DNA of 36,588 nt, from positions 1-36,588 of IMG/VR virus record IMGVR_UViG_3300043434_000225; one strand, written 5' to 3'. The notes under the pieces were generated by a model that saw nothing but the letters and a program-made list of their open reading frames with translations, had not been told where the DNA came from and searched no databases. Every line of letters starts with the position of its first letter. The stretch's first letter is position 1. Positions 1,230-36,588 of this stretch are shown here, piece after piece. The position numbers and the translations under genes are program-made. The stretch is from a virus.

Positions 1230-1250
1230 TATACTCTACCCCGAAGGCAT
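1230..1250 (-). terminator. Hairpin at the end of the tmRNA coding piece
   Basis: The minus strand reads CTCTATGCC-TTCG-GGGTAGAG, an 8-bp stem with one bulged G and a UUCG loop. It could be the last helix of the coding piece or a transcript-end hairpin. The bases after it are AT-rich but not a clean U-run. Coordinates are within a few bases. Confidence 0.5.
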
Positions 1251-1302
1251 AGAGAGTAGGTTATTCTGTTACGAGGAAACCTACCGAAACCCTAAGCAGC
1301 AA

Positions 1303-1335
1303 TTAAGCTGCTAAAGCGAATAACTCATCGTTTGC
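1303..1335 (-). other. tmRNA tag reading frame (ANDELFALAA-stop)
   Basis: Ten codons from the resume codon GCA to TAA encode ANDELFALAA. The E. coli tag is ANDENYALAA after its first alanine, so only two positions differ. The end ALAA is the degron recognised by ClpXP. The bases before the resume codon (AAGATAACT) resemble the upstream signal in bacterial tmRNA. Confidence 0.93.
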
Positions 1336-1415
1336 AGTTATCTTATTTATATTTTTTCGACTTCTTTGTCGGACGCCCTTATTCTATCTACCCCAATCGA
1401 AACCTGGTCAGGCCC

Positions 1416-1494
1416 ATTAGGAAACATACTACACCACAAGTTAGCAACAATACAGTGTGGTTATGGCGGTTGCTCGGCATTGTAGTATGTTTTC
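1416..1494 (-). other. Intervening transcribed segment of the permuted tmRNA
   Basis: These 79 nt separate the encoded CCA end (1495-1497) from the mature 5' base (1415). A perfect 12-bp inverted repeat, plus-strand AAACATACTACA (1422-1433) and TGTAGTATGTTT (1481-1492), forms a stem that would bring both processing sites together. In known permuted tmRNAs this segment is removed during maturation. Confidence 0.85.
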
Positions 1495-1546
1495 TGGTGG
1501 ACCTGGGCGGAATCGAACCGCCGTCTTGAAGTCCTTACCTTAGAGT

Positions 1547-1666
1547 TTACGTCGTTTTTGCTGTGTAAGGTCTACGATCTAAAAATTGCTTATCGTTGAC
1601 CTCGTATTCTGTGGTTGTTGTACAACCAACTAGTACTAAACTTGTTACTAATACTGCTAATTTCAT
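1547..1666 (-). CDS. Small lipoprotein, 39 aa
   Basis: The protein starts MKLAVLVTSLVLVGCTTTT: a short basic start, a hydrophobic stretch and a lipobox LVGC, so the mature peptide would be about 25 residues anchored through Cys15. GGAGA lies 5 nt before the ATG. The end of the gene runs into, or close to, the acceptor piece of the permuted tmRNA, so the two may share a transcript. The tiny size recalls phage outer-membrane spanins (Rz1-like) and superinfection-exclusion lipoproteins, but no Rz partner is visible and the role is unknown. A hairpin upstream covers the ribosome site. Confidence 0.78.
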   Translation of the reverse strand: MKLAVLVTSLVLVGCTTTTEYEVNDKQFLDRRPYTAKTT

Positions 1667-2548: not shown

Positions 2549-3133
2549 TTAGATTTTACCTACTAGATCCAAGCTAGGAGTTAGTGTTGCAGCTCCTTCA
2601 GCCCATTTAGCTGGACATGCTTCGTTTGGATTGTTTCTTGTGTAGATAGCAGCTTTGATCTTACGTACTAATTCATCAGCGTTTCTACCGATACCGTCTG
2701 CAGTTTGTTCAATGATAACCGCGATGCCATCTGGGTCTACAACAAAGGTAGAACGTTTAGCTAAACCAGAATTGCTGTCTAGTATATCAAAGACATCGTC
2801 TGTTAGAGAATGGTTAGCGTCACCAATTAATGGGTACTCTAGTTTCTTGATTGTATCAGAAGCGTCAGCCCAAGCTTTGTGAACAAAATGGGTATCAGTA
2901 GAAACTCCATATACATTTACACCTAGACCTTTAAGTTCTTCATAGTGGTCTTGTAAGTCACCTAACTCTGTAGGGCAAACAAACGTGAAGTCTGCTGGAT
3001 AGAAAAAGAAAACATTCCATGAGCCCTGAAAATGAGCTGATGTTAGGTCAATAAATTTGCCCGCTTGATAGGCTTGGCCATCCCACTGACGATATTCTAA
3101 AAATTCTTGTACATTGTGTCCTACGTTGATCAT
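2549..3133 (-). CDS. ahpC: Alkyl hydroperoxide reductase C, 2-Cys peroxiredoxin
   Basis: A 194-aa protein, close to E. coli AhpC along its full length. The peroxidatic Cys53 lies in FTFVCPTELGDL, and the resolving Cys173 in EACPAKW, followed by the C-terminal TPSLDLVGKI. It reduces hydrogen and alkyl peroxides in the cytoplasm and is normally recycled by AhpF or thioredoxin, neither seen here. The start is the ATG at 3131-3133, 6 nt after GGAG; a TTG 12 nt upstream overlaps that site and is rejected. It follows the pqqA terminator closely, leaving little room for its own promoter. Both catalytic Cys are intact, so it should be active. A peroxiredoxin is an uncommon phage cargo. Confidence 0.95.
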   Translation of the reverse strand: MINVGHNVQEFLEYRQWDGQAYQAGKFIDLTSAHFQGSWNVFFFYPADFTFVCPTELGDLQDHYEELKGLGVNVYGVSTDTHFVHKAWADASDTIKKLEYPLIGDANHSLTDDVFDILDSNSGLAKRSTFVVDPDGIAVIIEQTADGIGRNADELVRKIKAAIYTRNNPNEACPAKWAEGAATLTPSLDLVGKI

Positions 3134-3154: not shown

Positions 3155-3180
3155 AGAAAGGGGACCGAAGTCCCCTAATT
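3155..3180 (-). terminator. Rho-independent terminator after pqqA
   Basis: Minus strand: AGGGGAC-TTCG-GTCCCCT (3159-3176), a perfect 7-bp stem with a UUCG loop, followed by TTCTATTTTATAATT. It sits between the pqqA stop and the ahpC start. Confidence 0.8.
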
Positions 3181-3197: not shown

Positions 3198-3269
3198 TTA
3201 CTTGTTCATTACGTACATTGTTACTTCGAAGCCGAAGCGCATTTCAGTAGCAGCTGGTTTTGTCCACAT
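3198..3269 (-). CDS. pqqA: PqqA, precursor peptide of pyrroloquinoline quinone
   Basis: This 23-aa peptide begins MWTKPAATEMR and contains GFEVTMY. The same positions in Klebsiella PqqA read MWKKPA...R.GLEVTLY. Glu15 and Tyr19, the two residues that PqqE crosslinks to build PQQ, are both present with the canonical three-residue spacing. One peptide is consumed per PQQ molecule after binding PqqD. AAGGAG stands 7 nt before the ATG, a very strong site. No other pqq gene is in the window, so host PqqB-E would be needed. The gene is bracketed by terminators at 3343-3370 and 3155-3180 and so forms its own transcript. PQQ is the cofactor of methanol dehydrogenases. The peptide is short, but the match covers its whole length. 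Confidence 0.93.
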   Translation of the reverse strand: MWTKPAATEMRFGFEVTMYVMNK

Positions 3270-3324
3270 AGTAAATCTCCTTAATTAAGTTTTAATATCG
3301 ATTGTAGCAAATTAACTACATTAA

Positions 3325-3332
3325 TACTTATA
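3325..3332 (-). promoter_or_regulatory. Late-promoter-like element before pqqA
   Basis: TATAAGTA on the minus strand differs from the T4 late promoter TATAAATA at one base and lies about 55 nt upstream of the pqqA start, just after a terminator. A sigma-70-like TACAAT at 3301-3306 is an alternative without a good -35 box. Confidence 0.4.
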
Positions 3333-3342
3333 AGAAACTTCC

Positions 3343-3370
3343 AAAAACTCACTAATTAAAAGTATTAGTG
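3343..3370 (-). terminator. Rho-independent terminator after the 57-aa gene
   Basis: Minus strand: CACTAAT-ACTTTTA-ATTAGTG, a 7-bp stem, followed by AGTTTTTGG. It ends the unit running through the 57-aa gene and insulates pqqA. Confidence 0.65.
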
Positions 3371-3386
3371 TGGGATAATGATTTCA

Positions 3387-3560
3387 TTATTCTGCAGCTG
3401 GTTGTGGCTGAGATGCTTCTTGTGCGGCGATCTGTGCTTCGCCTTGCTGTTTGATTTTGACTACTAATGAAGCGATTTGGTCAAATGGGTGCTTACCCAA
3501 AGAAGCCAAGATTGTGTTAACTTCAGTCACAGTCAATTCTAATTTAATAATTTGTTCCAT
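3387..3560 (-). CDS. Conserved small phage protein, 57 aa
   Basis: Starts MEQIIKLELTVTEVNTILAS and continues LGKHPFDQIASLVVKIKQQ, with a Gln/Ala-rich tail. The pattern L-x-L-T-V-x-E-V-N-x-I-L-x-x-L-G-x-x-P resembles a small family often seen in phages of this type; I know no function. AAAGGA precedes the ATG. It begins 2 nt after the end of regA, so it is probably on the regA transcript. Confidence 0.7.
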   Translation of the reverse strand: MEQIIKLELTVTEVNTILASLGKHPFDQIASLVVKIKQQGEAQIAAQEASQPQPAAE

Positions 3561-3562
3561 TT

Positions 3563-3994
3563 TTATTCCTTTATATTACGTTTAACACCACCAATATTAT
3601 ACTTTGGTACTAGTTCCCATTCTGCTTTCTCTTTAAAAGAAACAACCTTTATTTGAGAAAGAGAAGCTTTTGGTTCTGCTTTAGATTTGTCTAAAATCTT
3701 TAGCAAGCCCCAATCTTGTAAGAGCTCCGCGATTACGTTGCGTCGCTCAATATCTGACATGGTAATATCTGACTCTTTGCCGTCTAAAGCAAATAGCTCT
3801 TTGAAGTGTACAATAAAGTACTTACCTTGTTTGTGTAAAATGTGGCATGACTGAAACAACTTCTTCTCTTTACGAGAAGCGATGCCGATACGAGTTAGAG
3901 TTTCTCTGACTTTCAGAAAGTTATCTGGTAGAATCAAGTCAACTTCCAACATTGCATCAGGTGTCCAATCATAATAAACCATTGCGATTGTCAT
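3563..3994 (-). CDS. regA: RegA translational repressor
   Basis: A 143-aa RNA-binding protein that blocks ribosome binding on early phage mRNAs. It matches T4 RegA (122 aa) along DNFLKVRETLTRIGIA, LFQSCHILHKQGKYFIVHFKEL, LLQDWGLLKI and WELVPKYNIG. Compared with T4 it has about 14 extra N-terminal residues; a later Met15 matches the T4 start, but the ribosome site AAGGAAAG favours 3994. It is the last gene of the clamp-loader block (gp45, gp44, gp62, regA), the same order as in T4. A perfect TATAAATA lies 37 nt upstream, suggesting late expression in addition to read-through. Confidence 0.95.
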   Translation of the reverse strand: MTIAMVYYDWTPDAMLEVDLILPDNFLKVRETLTRIGIASRKEKKLFQSCHILHKQGKYFIVHFKELFALDGKESDITMSDIERRNVIAELLQDWGLLKILDKSKAEPKASLSQIKVVSFKEKAEWELVPKYNIGGVKRNIKE

Positions 3995-4030
3995 AATAAA
4001 TTACTTTCCTTGTTTATCTTATTGTGTAAT

Positions 4031-4038
4031 TATTTATA
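4031..4038 (-). promoter_or_regulatory. T4-type late promoter before regA
   Basis: A perfect TATAAATA on the minus strand in the 47-nt gap between gp62 and regA. In T4 regA is mainly an early/middle gene, so a late promoter here would be a difference. Confidence 0.5.
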
Positions 4039-4041
4039 AGA

Positions 4042-4425
4042 CTAAGGATTTCGTCCACCGACATCGTATTGCTTCCTGATGCTATCGATCTGTTCTGGCG
4101 AAAGTAAATCCAAAATCTCATAAGCTTTCTGCTCAGAATATTTATAATGCTTACAAATTAACTGTATAAGATCGGTTGGTGCATCTTTCTTGTGCCACTT
4201 ACTGAATCTTCTTTTCTTAGGGATAGCAAGTCTAAGGAAGTCATACTGCCACTTCTTAGGAGCGTCTCTAAACTTGTTCATCTCATTAGCAAACAGTACT
4301 GTGTCAGGAAAATAAGATAGACCCTTGTTGATTATGAATGCATTATAATCTTTCTCTGCTGTTGGATCTACAAACAGGTCCTGTTTATTTTCATTGATTG
4401 AATTTAGGAAGTCAAATGGACTCAT
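4042..4425 (-). CDS. 62: Sliding clamp loader small subunit gp62
   Basis: A 127-aa protein (T4 gp62 is 187 aa; shorter versions are usual in cyanophage relatives). It starts MSPFDFLNSINENKQDLF and contains YNAFIINKGLSYFPDTV, a recognisable gp62 segment, and KKWQYDFLRLAIPKKRRFSK. With gp44 it forms the ATP-dependent loader of the gp45 clamp. Its ATG overlaps the previous stop by 4 nt (ATGA), and it follows gp44 with one small gene between. Confidence 0.9.
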   Translation of the reverse strand: MSPFDFLNSINENKQDLFVDPTAEKDYNAFIINKGLSYFPDTVLFANEMNKFRDAPKKWQYDFLRLAIPKKRRFSKWHKKDAPTDLIQLICKHYKYSEQKAYEILDLLSPEQIDSIRKQYDVGGRNP

Positions 4426-4730
4426 TTTAGACCCATCTCTTCCATGTTCTTAGAGCTAGCTCTGAATACTTTATTGGGCCAGCGATCTTCTAGAATCTGT
4501 ACAATCTCTTCCTTAGTAGAACCTTGAGCTAGGAACTCTTGAGTCGCAGAGTTATGAACTTGAATCAAGTCACCTTCTTTTGAGAACGTGATCATAACTT
4601 CTTCAGGCATACTCTTTTCGATAGTTTGCATTAAGATGTCTTTGACTTGTTTGACTCTATATTGAACTATAGTTCTAAGAACCAACCAACCTGTGACGAA
4701 ACCAAATATGAATATGATTAAATAATCCAT
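4422..4730 (-). CDS. Small membrane-anchored protein between gp44 and gp62
   Basis: A 102-aa protein with one N-terminal transmembrane segment (residues about 3-20, YLIIFIFGFVTGWLVLRT), followed by a soluble part with an EEVMITFSKEGDLIQVHNSA strand pattern and a helical tail. The position between the two clamp loader genes is shared by small proteins in related phages, but I know no function. Translation is coupled to gp62 through a 4-nt overlap. Confidence 0.72.
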   Translation of the reverse strand: MDYLIIFIFGFVTGWLVLRTIVQYRVKQVKDILMQTIEKSMPEEVMITFSKEGDLIQVHNSATQEFLAQGSTKEEIVQILEDRWPNKVFRASSKNMEEMGLK

Positions 4731-4739
4731 CTCACCCTC

Positions 4740-5675
4740 CTACTTGAATTTACATTGAGCCATAACTTCAGTCAGGGCTGCCATGAGATTAAGTTCAGCA
4801 TCAGCTACGAAAGCAGCTTTGTACTGGTAGTCTGCAAGGATCAAAACCAGCTGCGGTATAGAAGATTGGTCAACGTTAGTAGAAGCTGTATCGTAGAGAT
4901 GCTTAAAGGTATTTATAGACTCATCGCTATGTTTTGCAACCCACTTACGAACTTCGGTAAAGTTTTTCTCTTTCAATCCCTTGATCAGCAGCTTATATGA
5001 CTCTTCAGTCAGGTTAACAAGTATACCTGAATCGATCTTACCAGAAACAGAATAACGCTGTAACTCATTTAGAATTCTGCGGAAGTCTGGAAAGTGTTTA
5101 GTGATTAGTTCTACCACAACCTTCTGATCGTACTCGATGTTCTCTTGCTTCAAGATATTAACTGTTCTCTTAAAGAATTCAGCGGCGAGAGCTGGTTTCT
5201 GAGAGTTATCGATGTTGAAGTCTACAACGGCACAACGAGAATGTAGTGGTTCGATTATCTTGTTCTTGAAGTTACAAGTAAAAATGAATCGACAGTTTGC
5301 ACTGAATTCTTCGATGAAGGCACGAAGAGCAGGTTGGGTAGAGTTTGGGTTCAGGTAGTCTGCTTCGTCGATGATGACTACTTTCTTGGAGTCAGTCAAT
5401 GAGATAGTAGAAGCAAAGCCCTTAATCTTGGTACGAAGAGTATCGATACCCGACTCCTCAGAACCGTTAATGAATAGGTACTCAGCTCCAATCTCATTAC
5501 ATAAAGCTTTTGCAACCGTAGTTTTACCCACGCCTGCACCACCTGAGAATAGGAAGTTAGGAAGCTGGCCAGAAGCAATAAATTCTTTAAAGACTTTCTT
5601 TAGCTCAGCAGGAAGGATACAATCGTCAATTTTCTGGGGACGATACTTTTCGACCCAGAGATAGTTGTTACTCAT
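4740..5675 (-). CDS. 44: Sliding clamp loader large subunit gp44
   Basis: A 311-aa AAA+ ATPase. Walker A GGAGVGKT is at residues 45-52, Walker B IIDEAD at 101-106, and the arginine-finger SRC motif of clamp loaders at 146-148; a helical collar domain fills the C-terminal third. It starts with the typical LWVEKYRPQKIDDCILP. It opens and loads the gp45 clamp at primer ends together with gp62. The length is close to T4 gp44 (319 aa). An AAGGAC site precedes the ATG. Confidence 0.97.
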   Translation of the reverse strand: MSNNYLWVEKYRPQKIDDCILPAELKKVFKEFIASGQLPNFLFSGGAGVGKTTVAKALCNEIGAEYLFINGSEESGIDTLRTKIKGFASTISLTDSKKVVIIDEADYLNPNSTQPALRAFIEEFSANCRFIFTCNFKNKIIEPLHSRCAVVDFNIDNSQKPALAAEFFKRTVNILKQENIEYDQKVVVELITKHFPDFRRILNELQRYSVSGKIDSGILVNLTEESYKLLIKGLKEKNFTEVRKWVAKHSDESINTFKHLYDTASTNVDQSSIPQLVLILADYQYKAAFVADAELNLMAALTEVMAQCKFK

Positions 5676-33310: not shown

Positions 33311-34441
33311 TTATTCTTTATCCATCGTTATTGAAGTTGTATCCATTGTGATAGCAGTAGAATCCATGGTAAATGATGTTCCCTGCACTGGTGGAGTTAT
33401 TAAGTCACCAAATGGGTTATCTTCACTAAATAATATCGCGGCTGCCTCTTCTTTGAATTTATTGTTATCACCGTATGAGTCTGGTCTGTCCATGTTATCT
33501 ATGAACGCTTCAGCCTCAGCAAAGCTACCATTACCTGTAATATATACGTTTGGTGGAGATGTGTAACCATTGCCAGCATTAGTTATATTTATGTATGTTA
33601 TTGTTCCAAGACTGTCAACACCAGCACCAATAGAAGCTGTCGCAGTGGCTCTTACACCAACATAAAGCAGAATTGCTGTTCCGTTTGCGCTAGAACCTGA
33701 TGTATGTGTAGGAGCTGCTGAAGACGTTGTTCCGGCCGTAACGACTGTGTATCTTCTATTTGATATACATACGTCAGCTCCAACGTCATAGTATGTTTCT
33801 GGTTCCCATTCTTCACCTATAGTAACAGTAGCTGAAGAGTATCCAGTTCCAACGTTTGTAACGTTTATAGATGAAACAATACCATTCTTAATAACGCTTG
33901 TGTCGAATGATTTAAGACTTTCAAAGTCGTCGATCTCTTTAACTCCAGTTTCCATTCTTTCGGAAGCATACTGGAATAATTCTACTTGTAGTTTATAAAC
34001 AAAAAGTTTACCGATTTGATAGAATGGATCTTGATGTGAAACAAACTTAATTTCAAATAAAGCGTCTGTCAATGGGAAATAGATTAAGTCACCTTCACAA
34101 GGTCTGCCTGGAAGTATTGTTCTACCAAATCTTCCGATAAGTTGTTCCCAGCGTCTTCTAGCCACAACTAAGGTGGCTGACTGTTCCATCATTAAACCAA
34201 ACTTCTGAATAAACGCGCCTTGACCGTCAAAGCCATCTACATTTTCTAGGTACATCTCAATAGAGTATGCGTGCTTGAACTTAGACAAGCGATCTTCGCC
34301 AAGGATCTCATCCTTAGCTACTAAAGTTCTTGGTATATAGTAGAAGTTTTGACCATAGAAAGACAAAGACTCAACGACTAAGTCTTCATGAAATAGCTGT
34401 TCATTCTTAGAACCTGCTGATGTGTATACTGAACGAGGCAT
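33311..34441 (-). CDS. 14: Neck protein gp14
   Basis: A 376-aa protein; the first 190 residues match T4 gp14 (LFHEDLVVESLSFYGQNFYY, EDRLSKFKHAYSIEMYLENV, LPGRPCEGDLIYFPLTDALF). About residues 185-310 are an insertion with two Gly-Tyr repeats (SINVTNVGTGYSSATVTI, YINITNAGNGYTSPPNVYI) around a Trp/Tyr-containing segment like a carbohydrate-binding module (EWEPETYYDVGADVCISN). T4 gp14 is 256 aa, so the extension is an addition. Confidence 0.94.
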   Translation of the reverse strand: MPRSVYTSAGSKNEQLFHEDLVVESLSFYGQNFYYIPRTLVAKDEILGEDRLSKFKHAYSIEMYLENVDGFDGQGAFIQKFGLMMEQSATLVVARRRWEQLIGRFGRTILPGRPCEGDLIYFPLTDALFEIKFVSHQDPFYQIGKLFVYKLQVELFQYASERMETGVKEIDDFESLKSFDTSVIKNGIVSSINVTNVGTGYSSATVTIGEEWEPETYYDVGADVCISNRRYTVVTAGTTSSAAPTHTSGSSANGTAILLYVGVRATATASIGAGVDSLGTITYINITNAGNGYTSPPNVYITGNGSFAEAEAFIDNMDRPDSYGDNNKFKEEAAAILFSEDNPFGDLITPPVQGTSFTMDSTAITMDTTSITMDKE

Positions 34442-34444
34442 TAG

Positions 34445-35404
34445 TTACCCCATGAAAAATTCTAATGGAGCAGATTTATTTAATAACTCATCTTTTAATT
34501 CTTTAATCTCTTCAATAGCTTCGTTGTACATAGCTTGCCAATCAATAGATATTCCACCTGGGAGTACTAAACCTTGGAACTTCTTACCATTGGCTGCCCA
34601 CTGTCTCTTAAATAGAGCGGCAGTATATCTCTTGAGCCATTCGTCGTCCCATACTCGTGTAAATTGAGAAGGATCTAGAGCTCTATAGCATTCTACTACA
34701 CAGAAGTCGCCAATTGCGATATCAGATTCCCAGTTAACGTCTAGATATAATCTACCTTGGCGACGATTGAATCTAAACATTGGTTTACCGTTTAATTCTA
34801 AGTCTAATAGAGACAAGTGACTCATGACTGTCTTGTAGTAAATGATTGACACAGACGTTAAGTCGTATAAGTCATTTAAGCGAAGTTGGTACTGTAAGTC
34901 AAAGATGTTCTTAGATGAGGACGCATTTGAGAATGGAATAACTCTAGCTATACCATACACAGCGTCTGGTAGATCAAAGTATCTCTTGTCGTATGTTCCA
35001 AGAGTTACACTTGAGAATGTCGCTGAATAATTAGAGTTTGCGCCAGTAATAGTTTCACCTGAAACAAAGTCACCGGTTACGTTTCTAACGATGAGAGTCA
35101 CCCCAGAAGATTCTGTTTGACCTTCTCTAATGATAGTAGCAGTGGCTCCAGACGTTTGACCTGTTACCAATTCACCTATCTCAAAGTTCTCGGCCACAGC
35201 TGCAGTAAGAGTAATTCTAGACGCAGTAACCTGTTGCTTGAGATATACTTTCTCAATGCCGTCCCAGTGGTACTGTCTCCAGTATTCTAGGGCTTCGTCT
35301 ACACGATCCTCTAACTGAGAGTCATCGACGTTGATCTCAACTACTGGCTCGCCTAGCTCTCTTAAGCAATAGTCGATTAATCCTTGTCTTGTAGTAACAG
35401 CCAT
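34445..35404 (-). CDS. 13: Neck protein gp13
   Basis: A 319-aa head-completion protein matching gp13: TTRQGLIDYCLRELGEPVVE at the start and VNWESDIAIGDFCVVECYRA, DDEWLKRYTAALFKRQWAAN, LPGGISIDWQAMYNEA toward the end. About residues 60-125 carry two repeats (FEIGELVTGQTSGATATI and FVSGETITGANSNYSATF) absent from T4. Confidence 0.94.
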   Translation of the reverse strand: MAVTTRQGLIDYCLRELGEPVVEINVDDSQLEDRVDEALEYWRQYHWDGIEKVYLKQQVTASRITLTAAVAENFEIGELVTGQTSGATATIIREGQTESSGVTLIVRNVTGDFVSGETITGANSNYSATFSSVTLGTYDKRYFDLPDAVYGIARVIPFSNASSSKNIFDLQYQLRLNDLYDLTSVSIIYYKTVMSHLSLLDLELNGKPMFRFNRRQGRLYLDVNWESDIAIGDFCVVECYRALDPSQFTRVWDDEWLKRYTAALFKRQWAANGKKFQGLVLPGGISIDWQAMYNEAIEEIKELKDELLNKSAPLEFFMG

Positions 35405-35429
35405 TTTATTGTTCCTAGTATTCTTTTAT

Positions 35430-35437
35430 TATTTATT
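35430..35437 (-). promoter_or_regulatory. Late-promoter-like element before gp13
   Basis: AATAAATA on the minus strand (one mismatch to TATAAATA), 25 nt before the gp13 ATG. It overlaps the stop of the 52-aa gene. Confidence 0.55.
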
Positions 35438-35591
35438 CATCTGCAGGCTCTGGTGTGTTGCCTTCGTCAAGCCATTTTAAATATGCTTGGTAGTCTGTGT
35501 TGGCTGTGTCGAATGGGATAAAGGCATTATCTGATAAACGAATAACTTTTTCTTGACCACCAATAGGATTCCATTGTTTGTAATTTTCCAT
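35433..35591 (-). CDS. Small protein, 52 aa, after the fibre gene
   Basis: Starts [20 protein letters not shown] and ends [21 protein letters not shown]. The end D-[YT]-x-x-Y-L-x-W-L-x-x-G-N-x-P-x-P is a pattern I know from short proteins and fibre tails near phage fibre genes; it may be a chaperone or an accessory of the fibre. It begins 1 nt after the fibre stop. No strong ribosome site, so translation is probably coupled. Confidence 0.66.
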
Positions 35592-35592
35592 T

Positions 35593-36588
35593 TTATAGCT
35601 CCGCAGTTGCAGTTAGTGTTAATCCAATTTGTGCTGCGGTAGAAAAATTAGTTACCATATAAGAAATAGCATCAGCTGAAACTTGATTATCTGCTGCAGT
35701 TGGAGAACTTAACGCACCACCACTAGAATTAAATGCAGTTACTGAAGAATAAGCAGTAGTTGGTGTTGCTCTCATTGTAACTTTTAATGAATAGGGTGCA
35801 CCTCTTGATGACGAGCCTAATGCAACTGAAGCGGTAGTTAATGACGCAGTTTGATAATACCTCTGACACAACGCCAACTCTTGTCCATAAGGTCTGTAGT
35901 CAAATGATGTAGCTGTAGAGCCTTTTTCTAGTTGAACGCCTGTGATGTAGAAGGTAGCTCCGTTAGTGCCGACTACTGATGTAGCGCCTGTTGCTGAGTA
36001 TCGTTCTGAACCTACCCAAGCACCCACTGTTCCTGAATATGTTGAGCCAACACCAAATCCAAAATATAAAGCTAATCCAATACTATTAGTTGTGTTCCAA
36101 GTTCCTGTTGTATCTCCAGCAATAGTAATGGTTTTTTGTTCCCATGTGTTTGCTGATGATATAGTGTAATTAAAAGGATATGACCTAGTAGCATTTATAT
36201 TGCCTAAAGCCCCTCCAAAAGTTCCTGTTAGACTTGAGCGAACCCAAAACGACAATGTTATTGTCTGTGCATTAGCAGTTCCCCAAGCAAGGTCAGCTAC
36301 GTTATATCCTTCAATATACTGAAATGCGACAAATACATCAGTTGCTCCTACAGAATATGCAGATAATGATGTAATTCCAAGATAGTTTGTAAATCCTGTT
36401 GGAGGAGTGACTGAGCCAGCATTTTGTTGGAAACTATATTTTGATGCCGCTGGTGCGGCCATTCTCCATCTATCTAGTCCATATACTGTTGCAGTTGGTG
36501 TCACACTCGCCCCAGCATTACGCTGGTCAATCACCATAGCACCATTAATAATACGATTCTTAAACCCTGTGTATTGCGCTTGGGTGTC
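35593..36588 (-). CDS. Tail-fibre-like protein, 5' part cut by window edge
   Basis: The frame is open to the right edge (332 codons visible plus stop), and continues through [18 protein letters not shown], a motif typical of a receptor-binding or fibre C-terminal module. The rest is a beta-sandwich-like, Thr/Ser/Gly-rich domain ([40 protein letters not shown]) similar to carbohydrate-binding modules in phage fibres. The internal ATG at 36537 is not the real start. Probably the host-recognition protein or an adjoining fibre. Confidence 0.8.

Follow-up and report, generated by a model that had tools for sequence, protein, structure and literature searches.

Cyanophages carry psbA and psbD, of which psbA encodes the fast-turnover part of photosystem II, and the psbA of S-PM2 holds a group I intron. 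A viral gene for PqqA, the peptide precursor of PQQ, has been described in the T4-like Lake Baikal phage population VP_266, for which enhanced methanol oxidation was proposed (Coutinho et al., 2020; PMC7678222). Moreover, a 2026 study of reservoir sediment lists viral pqqA, pqqD and pqqE as phosphorus-cycling genes (PMC13188868).

Here, a pqqA gene was analyzed in a 36,588-nt stretch of viral DNA (the window), which is a fragment of the genome of a T4-like lytic phage. The window shares with VP_266 the T4-like type, a predicted Methylophilaceae host, the pqqA gene and the same proposed role; by contrast, VP_266 also encodes methanol dehydrogenase, and it was presented as a single case (PMC7678222). 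The statement in the first-pass annotation that no function had been described for a viral pqqA was thus wrong, since both the VP_266 report and the role proposed in it came earlier (PMC7678222). What is new here is the extent, namely that pqqA appears to be general among Methylophilales phages and is carried by all of their detected isolates, whereas the kind of gene was already known. In the reservoir study viral pqqA was interpreted in terms of phosphate solubilisation (PMC13188868), whereas the hosts of phages of the window type are methylotrophs. Phage pqqA may be regarded as the methylotroph counterpart of cyanophage psbA in that the phage would bring only the fast-turnover part of the host energy machine; however, psbA encodes a structural protein, while the predicted pqqA product is a consumed cofactor precursor.

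Results

The 72-base open reading frame read from 3269 to 3198 encodes the peptide MWTKPAATEMRFGFEVTMYVMNK (Table 1). In hmmscan searches this peptide covered the whole of the Pfam PqqA profile (PF08042; 6.4e-11, 42.4 bits as compared to a cut-off of 21.1) and of the NCBIfam equivalog TIGR02107 (1.8e-10, 40.4 bits as compared to 20), and PF08042 matched the window once when all six frames were searched (E 2.4e-11, 40.2 bits, cut-off 21.1). Glu15 and Tyr19 are both present and lie four residues apart (E-x3-Y), which is the spacing of PqqE substrates, and the length is within the range of about 20-30 residues. Judged by these matches and residues, the minus-strand frame is a genuine PqqA open reading frame and not a chance one, and the identity, the PF08042 match and the crosslinking spacing put forward in the first-pass annotation were all borne out. 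The plus-strand reading of 3198-3269 (LLVHYVHCYFEAEAHF...) was rejected as it is not PqqA. No match to the window peptide was obtained in PHROG or among solved structures.

Table 1. Features of the window and of related loci (L-prefixed positions refer to related viral loci).
Feature	Position	Strand	Basis or remark
Permuted tmRNA, betaproteobacterial type	1230..1597	minus	RF01850, E 1.3e-38
AhpC-type peroxiredoxin, downstream neighbour of pqqA	2549..3133	minus	TIGR03137 just over cut-off
Intrinsic terminator-like hairpin 3' of pqqA, AGGGGACTTCGGTCCCCT then T-rich	3159..3176	minus	7 bp, T-run
pqqA, 23-aa PQQ precursor peptide	3198..3269 (incl. stop)	minus	Translation and profile matches
Ribosome-binding site AAGGAG	3277..3282	minus	7 nt 5' of ATG; read from sequence
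Leader hairpin TGTAG-TTAATTTG-CTACA (suggestive only)	3303..3320	minus	Between TAAGTA motif and ribosome site
ATAAGTA motif (possible promoter element)	3325..3331	minus	Kept in ~10 related T4-like loci
Hairpin and T-run closing upstream gene	3344..3368	minus	Read from sequence
T4-like core block upstream of pqqA: small ORF, regA, gp62, small ORF, gp44	3387..5675	minus	
Leader RNA, T4-like Methylophilales phages	L036:4483-4566, L391:5923-6008, L237:7010-7091, L340:1757-1841, others		
Group I intron inside 72-nt pqqA	L394:5123-5436; L195:5702 downwards	plus (L394); minus (L195)	RF00028, E 5e-24 (L394), 3e-16 (L195)

The gene is set apart from regA and its neighbour by the hairpin closing the upstream gene and stands alone. 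The ATAAGTA motif upstream of pqqA, a possible promoter element, differs from the phage late-promoter consensus TATAAATA, and since the latter is absent upstream of pqqA, control of the gene by a late promoter is unsupported. Elsewhere in the window TATAAATA occurs ten times on the minus strand and not on the plus strand, at sites including those 5' of gp18, gp19 and gp22, and it is probably the late promoter of the phage. For the leader hairpin, the window by itself gives a p of about 0.11; hairpins of differing sequence occupy the same position in the relatives L061, L087, L193, L072 and L206, whereas strict pairing gave none in L060 and L158 has only a weak one, so that this element is suggestive only.

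The T4-like nature of the window is evident from genes for the gp23 capsid protein, a T4-type terminase, regA and the clamp loader (gp62, gp44), and pqqA sits among viral genes on the same contig, as is asked of an auxiliary metabolic gene. The tag peptide of the tmRNA reads ANDELFALAA, and phage-encoded tmRNA was also seen in L391 and L449. Peptides identical to that of the window are encoded in Methylophilaceae chromosomes, with 2-12 scattered pqqA copies per genome in the six Methylophilaceae genomes sampled. This is similar to a survey reporting 3-12 pqqA copies and other pqq genes that are generally single-copy (PMC4109929), and, with the remaining pqq genes typically present as one set, such numbers indicate that hosts themselves already make use of additional pqqA dosage. 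Like the extra chromosomal copies, the phage gene encodes the identical peptide and stands alone, away from pqqBCDE; it differs from them in its phage location, its own leader and terminator, and synonymous DNA differences. The host copy nearest in DNA sequence (2 of 72 nt) was not counted as a sign that transfer was recent, the gene being too short for this. Taken together, the identical host peptides, the Methylophilales isolates carrying pqqA and the betaproteobacterial tmRNA support a methylotroph of the Methylophilales as host of the window phage, in agreement with the link to a methylotroph drawn in the first-pass annotation.

No PqqE was found in the window, which is a fragment of a phage genome that may have other pqq genes elsewhere, and the linkage of pqqA to pqqBCDE, typical though not required, is absent there, as it is for the extra host copies, which likewise stand alone. 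Methanol dehydrogenase was not seen in the 36.6-kb window either. Moreover, neither PqqE over cut-off nor PqqB was found in 50 viral records each, and phages therefore appear to supply the precursor only. In one 72-kb viral record (G017:34049-42790; L043:898-1617), pqqA at 41887 is followed immediately by a quinoprotein-dehydrogenase-associated SoxYZ-like carrier, and a PQQ alcohol dehydrogenase lies at 34049-35731, all within about 9 kb, which ties this viral pqqA to quinoprotein use.

Viral pqqA was sought with degenerate DNA patterns for the core (GFEVTMY) and for the N-terminus. The core pattern matched at least 120 stretches in IMG/VR, with a PqqA-like peptide in 120 of the 120 matches listed, and both patterns combined gave at least 189 viral loci with PqqA in IMG/VR; most viral records carrying pqqA are fragments. 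Nine isolated Methylophilales phages carry the gene, namely Venkman, P19250A, MEP301, MEP401, MEP402 and four Melnitz phages. The other matches in a collection of 50,697 phage records were one unassigned Manatee Spring phage and two 'Acinetobacter phage' records, and no true phage of another named host matched in this collection. The 'Acinetobacter phage MD-2021a' matches were rejected, the opened record being a bacterial contig: CAKLQF020000010.1 (L366) is 144 kb long, has ppk and pqqBCD beside pqqA and resembles a bacterial chromosome. None of the isolate records examined annotates pqqA, which is either uncalled or overlain by a gene called on the opposite strand, the latter in one Melnitz record and in MW202481. 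These opposite-strand CDSs, which span most or all of pqqA (MZ577095.1, L363:3961-4056; MW202481.1, L364:2067-2195), are probably false genes. Genes of 25 codons slip past annotation, and pqqA in the isolate records is an example. In the publications on Melnitz and MEP401/402 covered by the search, pqqA goes unmentioned.

Clustered by gene context, with three neighbouring proteins in common as the threshold, the window and the isolates formed four groups, namely Venkman/P19250A/MEP301/MW202481, MEP401/402, Melnitz and the T4-like group of the window. In further lineages, divergent pqqA copies adjoin a terminase, portal or capsid gene. Prevalence was assessed independently of pqqA, using relatives of regA with 1.5 kb downstream present and relatives of the Venkman recombinase. 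At 89% regA identity or more, pqqA was intact in 11 of 12 loci and split by an intron in the twelfth; below 84% it was present in 8 of 45. Among Venkman recombinase relatives at 92% or more, 26 of 28 loci carried pqqA, the remaining two stopping at contig ends, and at 47-53% identity none of 44 did. Judged from these loci, prevalence appears near-complete within phage clades that are unrelated to one another. By regA the window groups with the leader-bearing phages described below, whereas its pqqA-AhpC cassette resembles that of the more distant L030, in which AhpC also adjoins pqqA and is 80% identical to that of the window; given this disagreement, it seems that cassettes were swapped between related phages while pqqA was retained.

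Two loci, L195 and L394, were considered as decayed pqqA copies, which was rejected when group I introns were found in them (Table 1). In both, the intron sits immediately 5' of the codon for Glu15 and is followed by a 3' exon that reads EVTMYVMNK. Folding of L394 gave the expected exon-guide helix, UUUGGAU/GUCCAAA, for which a compensatory change was read from the sequence of L195. Downstream of the intron an HNH-like open reading frame was recognised by eye in these viral contigs. Among further features of T4-like pqqA phages, ROSE-type RNA thermometers (RF02523) lie beside hsp20 (L083:1445-1510, L069:4506-4572).

Conservation was measured on 77 unique sequences listed from the N-terminal pattern, since the core pattern already fixes GFEVTMY. 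R11, G13, E15, T17 and Y19 are invariant among them, and for codons 7-23 pS was 0.69 and pN 0.075 (pN/pS 0.11), with synonymous sites near saturation. A ribosome site core of at least 5 nt precedes 181 of 196 viral pqqA genes (5 expected), and a terminator-like hairpin follows 94 of 193 copies (1.5 expected). Viral PqqA is under purifying selection, and both pN/pS and prevalence show the retention by selection in phages that is expected of an auxiliary metabolic gene.

In the closest regA relatives of the window, pqqA is preceded by a leader of the form CTCAAG-stem-TGAnCTG-stem-AAGGAG. Across 18 sequences, pairing in the first stem of this leader reaches 98.9%, and four of five pairs show changes on both sides, which points to a structured and strongly covarying RNA. 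The leader is absent from Rfam 15. Its model matched 20 of 150 Methylophilaceae genomes, once in each, always before pqqA and in genomes of 0.9-1.4 Mb throughout; it was not found in the window. As three bases of the first loop could base-pair with the ribosome site in the majority of leader sequences, translational control by the leader is plausible.

Discussion

PqqA is the only component consumed in PQQ synthesis, one per PQQ, while PqqB-E are reusable enzymes, and a supply of the precursor only fits this chemistry. We consider it quite probable that phage pqqA supplies the consumed component and thereby sustains methanol oxidation during infection; the relief of a PQQ bottleneck suggested in the first-pass annotation is thus supported in principle. 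Host PqqD and PqqE would join Glu15 and Tyr19 in the phage peptide by a crosslink, and the remaining steps to PQQ would fall to host enzymes. Since hosts encode this very peptide, its acceptance by PqqD/PqqE and conversion to PQQ are likely. Being short and consumed, PqqA would be the first component to become scarce once infection halts host transcription; by bringing pqqA alone, the phage would then keep PQQ available to newly made methanol dehydrogenase, and energy would continue to reach phage replication via the PQQ-loaded enzyme. Disruption of pqqA in Methylorubrum extorquens lowered PQQ but did not abolish it, which was attributed to extra copies (PMC6520949); by this result phage pqqA could be redundant, and the PQQ already present in methanol dehydrogenase may be enough for one lytic cycle.

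The PQQ formed might instead serve another end, for example protection from oxidative stress or an enzyme that uses PQQ but is not methanol dehydrogenase. The AhpC-type peroxiredoxin directly downstream of pqqA in the window and in L030 would fit redox defence; however, among the 196 other viral loci, a search with the proteins of the window found just a single one with AhpC, and a terminator lies between pqqA and AhpC, so that we regard this use as unlikely. A role as decoy or inhibitor, raised in the first-pass annotation, in which phage PqqA ties up PqqD/PqqE, lowers PQQ and redirects host metabolism, is very unlikely: a peptide binding PqqD/PqqE would retain the same residues, but this one is identical to that of the host and has both E15 and Y19 in place, a perfect substrate yields more product and does not block, and the crosslinking pair is kept by selection in 77 of 77 sequences. 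That pqqA is a host DNA fragment carried by chance and without benefit is barely credible, since, short as the gene is and although cassettes are exchanged among related phages (the window as compared to L201/L204), pN/pS is about 0.1, ribosome sites are maintained, prevalence within clades is near-complete, unrelated phage lineages carry pqqA, and just two copies look broken, both of which contain a group I intron and regain the frame at the predicted splice site.

More speculatively, pqqA could be a near-universal core gene of Methylophilales phages that has been overlooked, was acquired several times independently and, in the closest relatives of the window, is joined to a new leader RNA through which PQQ, or a signal related to it, is sensed and pqqA translation controlled. 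This extended reading is doubtful; if it were true, the leader-bearing phages would tap into the feedback control of the host itself through a leader shared with streamlined hosts.

In lakes and coastal seas, methylotrophs are one of the main routes taken by methanol carbon. The sequence data suggest that Methylophilales phages routinely keep host methanol oxidation supplied through the consumed precursor of PQQ. If phages as a rule supply this precursor, viral control of C1 oxidation would be general, and phage-host pairs on which to test this already exist.
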